Below, in pieces: positions 35 through 49,297 of a stretch of 49,297 nt of DNA. Position 1 is the first letter of the stretch, and each line of letters begins with the position of its first letter. This DNA is from Agathobaculum butyriciproducens (GTDB lineage Bacteria; Bacillota; Clostridia; Oscillospirales; Butyricicoccaceae). The position numbers were made by a program, and so were the translations under genes. The stretch is from NCBI GenBank assembly GCA_003096535.1, contig QEKJ01000019.1:1-49297 (forward strand). The letters are read 5' to 3'. A model generated the notes under the pieces. That model was given only the letters and a program-made list of their open reading frames with translations, was not told the origin of the DNA and did not search any database.

Positions 35-95
35 AGCAAAACACCCCACTTGTTAGATAGTATACCATACTGTCTAACAAATGGGGTGCAGTTCA
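1..95 (-). mobile_element. 5' end of an IS3-family (IS150-like) insertion sequence, left copy
   Basis: Bases 1-97 are the exact reverse complement of 49201-49297; the match stops at base 98. The outer end reads TGAACTGCACCCC on the minus strand, with the 5'-TG terminus usual for IS3 elements. Just inside is an imperfect palindrome (ACCCCA...TGGGGT, about 46 bp), then the start of an orfA running off the window. The element lies in the same direction as the mutS gene it interrupts. Two extra matching bases (96-97) are probably chance. Family assignment rests on the terminus and the first 11 residues of OrfA, so IS3 is likely but not proven. Confidence 0.75.
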
Positions 96-166
96 AACAG
101 AATGTAATCTTTATTTTTGTTTTTGATCTCAAAATACTGCTGCATCATGGGCGTCAGTTCAGCCAT
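74..166 (-). pseudogene. mutS: mutS, DNA mismatch-recognition ATPase, cut by an IS after codon 24
   Basis: From an ATG at 166-164, preceded by an AGAGGT ribosome site, the frame reads MAELTPMMQQYFEIK and continues to ...DYILF at base 95. This is the conserved start of the MutS mismatch-binding domain, normally followed by FRLGDFYEMF. Instead the frame enters the IS end and adds six residues (ELHPIC) before a TAG at 76-74. It starts 15 nt after the miaB stop, a common miaB-mutS arrangement. MutS is about 850-900 residues, so nearly all of it is missing here. Any remainder would lie beyond the IS. If no other copy exists, the cell lacks MutS repair. Confidence 0.85.
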
Positions 167-181
167 GTTCTTACCTCTTTC

Positions 182-49202: not shown

Positions 49203-49297
49203 TGAACTGCACCCCATTTGTTAGACAGTATGGTATACTATCTAACAAGTGGGGTGTTTTGCTATGCCAAAAGGAGTACCAAACAAACGATATACGC
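49203..49297 (+). mobile_element. 5' end of the same IS3-type element, right copy (runs off the window)
   Basis: The identical copy of bases 1-95 in inverted orientation, beginning TGAACTGCACCCC. An imperfect palindrome (49210-49255; arms ACCCCATTTGTTAGACAGTA and its near-complement) lies before the orfA start and could hide its ribosome site in read-through RNA. The TATACT inside it might serve as a -10 box. Insertion is intergenic here. Confidence 0.75.
49264..49297 (+). CDS. IS3-type transposase OrfA, N-terminal fragment (runs off the window)
   Basis: ATG at 49264 opens MPKGVPNKRYT, identical to the left copy. The remainder is outside the window. Confidence 0.6.
   Translation, partial: MPKGVPNKRYT

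Follow-up and report, generated by a model that had tools for sequence, protein, structure and literature searches.

The mutS fragments and the element at their ends

The window analyzed here is the entire contig C19 (49,297 nucleotides) of the Agathobaculum butyriciproducens genome assembly, which comprises 2.81 Mb in 57 contigs and is 99.7% complete. Near its left end, the minus strand encodes miaB (182 to 1579), an open frame of 465 aa with 84–88% identity to miaB of four relatives. A ribosome-binding site follows (GAAAGAGG, 174 to 181, minus strand), and the 22 bases upstream of the next ATG, at position 166, pair with the anti-Shine-Dalgarno sequence at -10.5 kcal/mol. This ATG opens a mutS 5' fragment (95 to 166, minus strand) that lies near the contig end and comprises 24 codons, MAELTPMMQQYFEIKNKNKDYILF, matching Pfam MutS_I profile positions 1–20 (E 9.6e-5). 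The frame read thus confirmed the original prediction that an intact miaB precedes a ribosome site and a conserved MutS start. Codon 9 of the fragment (140 to 142) is Q, and the corresponding residue is K in all 19 readable genus relatives.

Host sequence ends at position 96, and base 95 serves twice, closing codon 24 (TTT) and opening an insertion sequence (IS) that begins TGA. From there, the mutS frame reads six IS codons (ELHPIC) and stops at 76–74, as had been predicted for an IS3-type end entered at base 95. The element's left end, TGAACTGCACCCC, occupies positions 1 to 95 on the minus strand with the first orfA codons (MPKGVPNKRYT), is cut by the contig end, and recurs elsewhere in the genome. 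Its orfA runs in the same direction as mutS. The junction reads ATTCTGTT followed by TGAACTGC, and the three host bases next to the element, GTT (96 to 98, minus strand), recur after an IS right end on contig C3.

A MutS1 family search of the assembly identified a single mutS1, at C3:208349-210904 on the minus strand, at the end of this contig of 211,009 bases. The last 143 bases of C3 are an IS right end, and host sequence starts at 210866. In order, the C3 end carries the C-terminus of an IS3-type orfB (EYLDYYNNRRIKAKLKGLPPAIHRQQALSAA, then a stop), the terminal sequence GGGGTCACTTCA, and GTTTTACCGTCTGGGCGATTTTTACGAAATG, which encodes FYRLGDFYEMF. The junction reads GGGGTCACTTCA followed by GTTTTACCG, or, alternatively, CACTTCA followed by GTTTTACC. 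Starting at FYRLGDFYEMF, the mutS tail runs for 841 codons without interruption before reaching its stop. It scored 1008 bits against MutS1 (TIGR01070; cut-off, 642) in a match that includes 38 IS bases, so that the apparent beginning of this match at profile position 8 does not reflect genuine MutS sequence. The break divides Pfam MutS_I at profile position 20, with positions 1–20 in the head and 20–111 in the tail, which continues with MutS domains II, III, IV, and V. The full I–V architecture of MutS1 is thus present across head and tail, and a single continuous frame with a start is absent, as IS ends separate the part on C19 from that on C3. After the tail comes mutL, a 687-aa open frame above its family cut-off. 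These results bear out the prediction that an IS interrupts mutS after codon 24, with the remainder of the gene beyond the element and a short target duplication, here the 3-bp GTT common to both junctions.

An intact mutS elsewhere in the genome would have contradicted that prediction, and the family search found no second mutS1 in the assembly. The 24-base empty site was likewise absent from the assembly with up to two mismatches allowed. We considered two kinds of proteins as substitutes for MutS1 and rejected both. An 802-aa mutS2 frame without stops on contig C13 matches the MutS1 profile at positions 493–839 only. Frames of 2770–3249 aa on C15 (L178:747-10484), C29, and C31 carry MutS domain I, and we infer a mobile-element origin for them. 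The C15 protein, the only one scanned, has SNF2/ResIII helicase domains and a MutS_I domain that keeps GDFFEMY, with no match to MutS domains II–V; judged by these domains, it may be a mismatch-reading module without the MutS ATPase. Neither MutS2 nor the mobile-element proteins have the full MutS1 architecture, and they should not replace MutS1.

Elements of the IS3 family, IS150-like group, have TGA...TCA terminal inverted repeats and produce target duplications of 3–4 bp. The element in mutS has such ends (TGAACTGCACCCC and GGGGTCACTTCA), and its paired copies show duplications of this length, which assigns it to the IS3 family on sequence features; we take it to be IS150-like. The left end (window positions 95 to 1) recurs at 98–100% identity in five other places in the genome, and the right end at 99–100% in five other contig ends. 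Besides GTT, three left/right pairs, matched by eye from their flanks, share CATT, AAGG, and TCA, giving four paired copies; one left end (C35) and two right ends (C23 and C5) are unpaired. A left end at C11:68991 is also preceded by GTT. Because of this second GTT copy and the unpaired ends, the GTT duplication alone does not prove that C19 pairs with C3, and the main evidence for this pairing is mutS itself. A second identical left end, from a different copy, lies at the other end of the window (49203 to 49297, plus strand), where its CATT flank matches a right end on C9. Contig C19 is thus bounded by two IS copies with left ends in opposite orientation.

Only the two ends of the copy in mutS are assembled, and the domain content of orfA and orfB comes from other copies. 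In the same genome, the C11 copy has an orfA with matches to HTH_28 and HTH_Tnp_1. For orfB, matches to rve, HTH_21, and rve_2 come from a 1297-bp element in the relative G078, with a right end 88% identical. Right-end matches, many of them short, occur in 36 of 87 family genomes, the source genome included. A hairpin at the right end folds well, with a stability not beyond that of shuffled sequences (z -1.36), and we do not interpret it as a terminator. At C14:27077-27130 (L014) and C11:52780-52833 (L015), the palindromic 54-base left end is matched in isolation, and these sites are possibly small non-autonomous (MITE-type) derivatives. IS3-family elements are not known to excise precisely at high frequency.

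The mutS locus in related genomes

The mutS locus was compared among 25 genomes of the genus, including the source genome. Eighteen others have a mutS1 above the cut-off: in 17 a single stop-free frame extends from profile position 1 or 2 to position 840, and in G024 the match covers positions 1–778. The source genome is the only one of the 19 above the cut-off with a match that begins anywhere other than profile position 1 or 2. In G006, mutS1 is in two pieces. The five remaining genomes have no mutS1 (four with a mutS2-level match only and one with none), and their completeness is 78–90%. Where the mutS start could be read (19 loci in 19 other genomes), the head runs uninterrupted into YRLGDFYEMF in every case.

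Gene order around mutS was also shared. All 19 loci have miaB upstream of mutS, at 77–88% identity, with the copies in G002 and G013 cut by the end of the locus. Genes of the window precede mutS in G001, G014, G018, and G022 over approximately its first 8 kb (to 15.8 kb, with gaps, in G014), and genes of C3 follow mutS in G001 and G014, the two relatives examined downstream. Because the relatives' gene order holds on both flanks, C19 and C3 are, on this comparative evidence, the two sides of one ancestral locus. The closest named MutS among 80 loci was that of Candidatus Butyricicoccus avicola (70% identity), in a set from which records of the source genome itself or of very near genomes may be missing; this match makes a genus of the Butyricicoccaceae likely.

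Age of the insertion and its probable consequences for MutS

We consider it highly probable that a recent insertion of an IS3-family element at codon 24 of the chromosomal mutS inactivated MutS. A recently active element would have inserted in the same orientation as mutS and duplicated GTT, and C19 and C3 would be chromosomal neighbors with one IS copy between them. This join is itself a deduction, since the IS interior between the contigs is unassembled.

Two measures of decay of the mutS tail were used as a clock, and neither detected any. Mean pN/pS was 0.162 for the tail against 17 relatives and 0.166 among the relatives, and, across 467 columns that do not vary in the others, the tail carries two private changes (range for the relatives, 0–16). 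The insertion is therefore not datable beyond "recent". Neighboring genes were examined for frameshifts in a set of 23 rows less the two mutS rows, with rows below 50% identity dropped; 4 of the 21 genes were covered over less than 90% of their length (lowest, 69%). None of these 21 conserved genes was split into two frames, a weak test given how few genes it covers. The undecayed tail, the unsplit neighbors, and the nearly identical IS ends together indicate that the insertion is recent, or has been in the lineage too briefly to leave a mutational load.

Neither the neighbors nor the tail thus bears a mutator signature, which fits a recent event and also an insertion in part of the population. 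The insertion might be real and yet confined to some cells or have arisen in culture, with the species keeping mismatch repair. We regard this as possible but somewhat unlikely, and it would be compatible with the preferred explanation for the sequenced clone. The undecayed tail and the nearly identical IS ends, which indicate a young event, speak for it, as does the fact that the data are a single assembly. However, the empty site is absent from that assembly, and both contigs stop at the IS, so that the interrupted form is the assembled form.

The several nearly identical IS copies in the genome could also have recombined, leaving head and tail far apart on the chromosome. Such a sequence of events has a parallel in Pseudomonas aeruginosa strain C19, in which, according to the available part of the report, IS6100 in mutS was followed by an inversion (PMC10040652). 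Here, however, GTT matches across both ends and both flanks are in the relatives' gene order, making recombination improbable; the consequence for mutS would be the same.

Whether the tail could be translated depends on starts upstream of F30-x-E32, which the tail keeps and which we take to be the mismatch-reading Phe-x-Glu motif. Two in-frame TTG codons lie inside the IS, with Shine-Dalgarno energies of +1.7 and +1.5 kcal/mol (no pairing) versus -10.5 at the native ATG. Codon 27 of the tail is a CTG, rare as a start codon; it shows a degree of Shine-Dalgarno pairing (-5.4 kcal/mol) and would keep F-x-E. The following ATG, codon 33 (-2.8 kcal/mol), and the best internal ATG, codon 62 (-8.0 kcal/mol, a value reached by ~3% of 2000 random 22-mers from the window), both lie past the motif. 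No ATG, GTG, or TTG with a ribosome site that would keep F-x-E was found, and a promoter scan found no promoter-like site near the junction, with 0.2 expected.

Translation of the tail from a TTG in the IS right end (9 or 5 codons ahead of the junction) or from the CTG at codon 27, yielding a nearly full and partly functional MutS, is improbable. The frame is open for 47 codons into the IS, the IS and mutS share an orientation such that transposase transcripts could run through, and the orfB stop lies 20 bases ahead of the first in-frame TTG, so that re-initiation is conceivable, as is use of the CTG. There is also a precedent in Vibrio splendidus 12B01, whose mutS receives a new start from a mobile element, as described in the accessible part of that study, which also reports a contribution of the HTPMMQQ motif to mismatch binding by MutS (PMC5296598). 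In our case, however, the insertion is at codon 24, after HTPMMQQ, which stays on the head side of the IS, and the IS frame offers no replacement for the lost residues TPMMQQY. The unpaired TTGs, the lack of a promoter-like site, and the position of the next ATGs past F-x-E also argue against such translation.

Under the preferred explanation of an inactivating insertion, the cell would produce a head peptide of 30 residues and lack any MutS whose mismatch-binding domain is whole, since the tail has no usable start upstream of F-x-E. MutL would have no MutS to load it, mismatch repair would be off, and transitions and homopolymer slips would rise. Loss of mismatch repair is likely because the split falls inside MutS domain I and no start with a ribosome site keeps F-x-E. 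The most likely outcome is the absence of functional MutS and a mutator strain; going by this predicted loss of MutS, the strain is probably a natural mutator.

An assembly error, with a chimeric contig end and an intact mutS in the real genome, is very improbable: many IS-bounded contig ends do offer breakpoints in this fragmented 57-contig assembly, but the coincident break of two contigs at one codon, with the two different ends of a single type of element and a target duplication, is not expected of a chimera, and neither an intact copy nor an empty site turned up in the assembly.

Comparable cases and mismatch-repair genes in the family

IS knock-outs of mutS and natural mutators are already known (PMC10040652, PMC4316635). 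Pseudomonas fluorescens ATCC948 is a natural mutS-defective mutator with a 41-bp duplication in mutS. As in our strain, mutS is broken by an insertion and, in the part of the report available, the other repair genes show no abnormality; ATCC948 is, however, a measured mutator (PMC4316635). Its short duplication was exactly reverted in one line, according to the same partial source (PMC4316635), whereas mutS is broken here by an IS flanked by a 3-bp duplication; the present strain also belongs to a different phylum and is known from sequence alone. P. aeruginosa clone C strain C19 is similar in that IS6100 splits mutS, leaving a 373-bp 5' fragment, and the portion of the report available states that its mutator phenotype was detected in earlier work (PMC10040652). 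It differs in the large inversion that followed, as well as in the IS and the phylum (PMC10040652).

In V. splendidus 12B01 and others, mobile DNA also lies in the first mutS codons with a host-derived orphan head upstream, as far as the accessible text describes (PMC5296598). There, a large integrase element in HTPMMQQ provides a new promoter and start, and mutS works until excision (PMC5296598), whereas here a small transposase element lies ~14 codons past HTPMMQQ and provides no recognizable start. SpyCIM1 in mutL of Streptococcus pyogenes SF370 is likewise a mobile element that blocks a mismatch-repair gene, and its growth-phase-dependent excision restores transcription, according to the part of the paper available (PMC4689407). 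mutS hypermutators of Lactiplantibacillus plantarum arise in the mouse gut, as reported in the available portion of PMC9795633. A further candidate case was rejected because mutS is intact there, going by the accessible part of the article (PMC7643977). Among the titles and openings of abstracts listed from the open-licence literature, we found no report of a mutS insertion or a natural mutator in Butyricicoccus, Agathobaculum, or Butyricicoccaceae.

Mismatch-repair genes were also surveyed in the 87 family genomes, including the source genome. mutS1 was above the cut-off in 68 of these, and 48 of the 52 genomes with completeness of 90% or more and contamination of 5% or less have a match at E up to 1e-60. 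Of the four others, G035 has mutS1 end pieces on two contigs, most likely reflecting a gap, and three (G008, G039, and G071) have a mutS2-like match only. Elsewhere in the family, partial matches were found in G048, G066, and G081. For mutL, G071 has a partial match below the cut-off, G008 has weak matches only, and G039, rated 100% complete, has none. A missing contig is possible in all three. G039 thus has neither a mutS1 nor a mutL match, only MutS2, and may either have lost mismatch repair naturally or be missing a contig. In G062 (L186, G062:C43:1637-4204), an otherwise full-length mutS contains one TAG stop. Given the IS knock-out described here, the lack of mutS1 and mutL matches in G039, and the stop within mutS in G062, we raise as a tentative and rather doubtful suggestion that mismatch-repair loss recurs in this Clostridia family, with mutator or repair-free lineages as a regular route that is partly driven by the widespread IS.

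The present case is a probable IS knock-out of mutS, an event familiar in kind, in a group of bacteria that has received little study. If the insertion is fixed, the genome used here for this species comes from a mutator, and neither its point mutations nor its homopolymer slips should be regarded as representative of the species. The finding also offers a test of mutators among relatives of butyrate producers.
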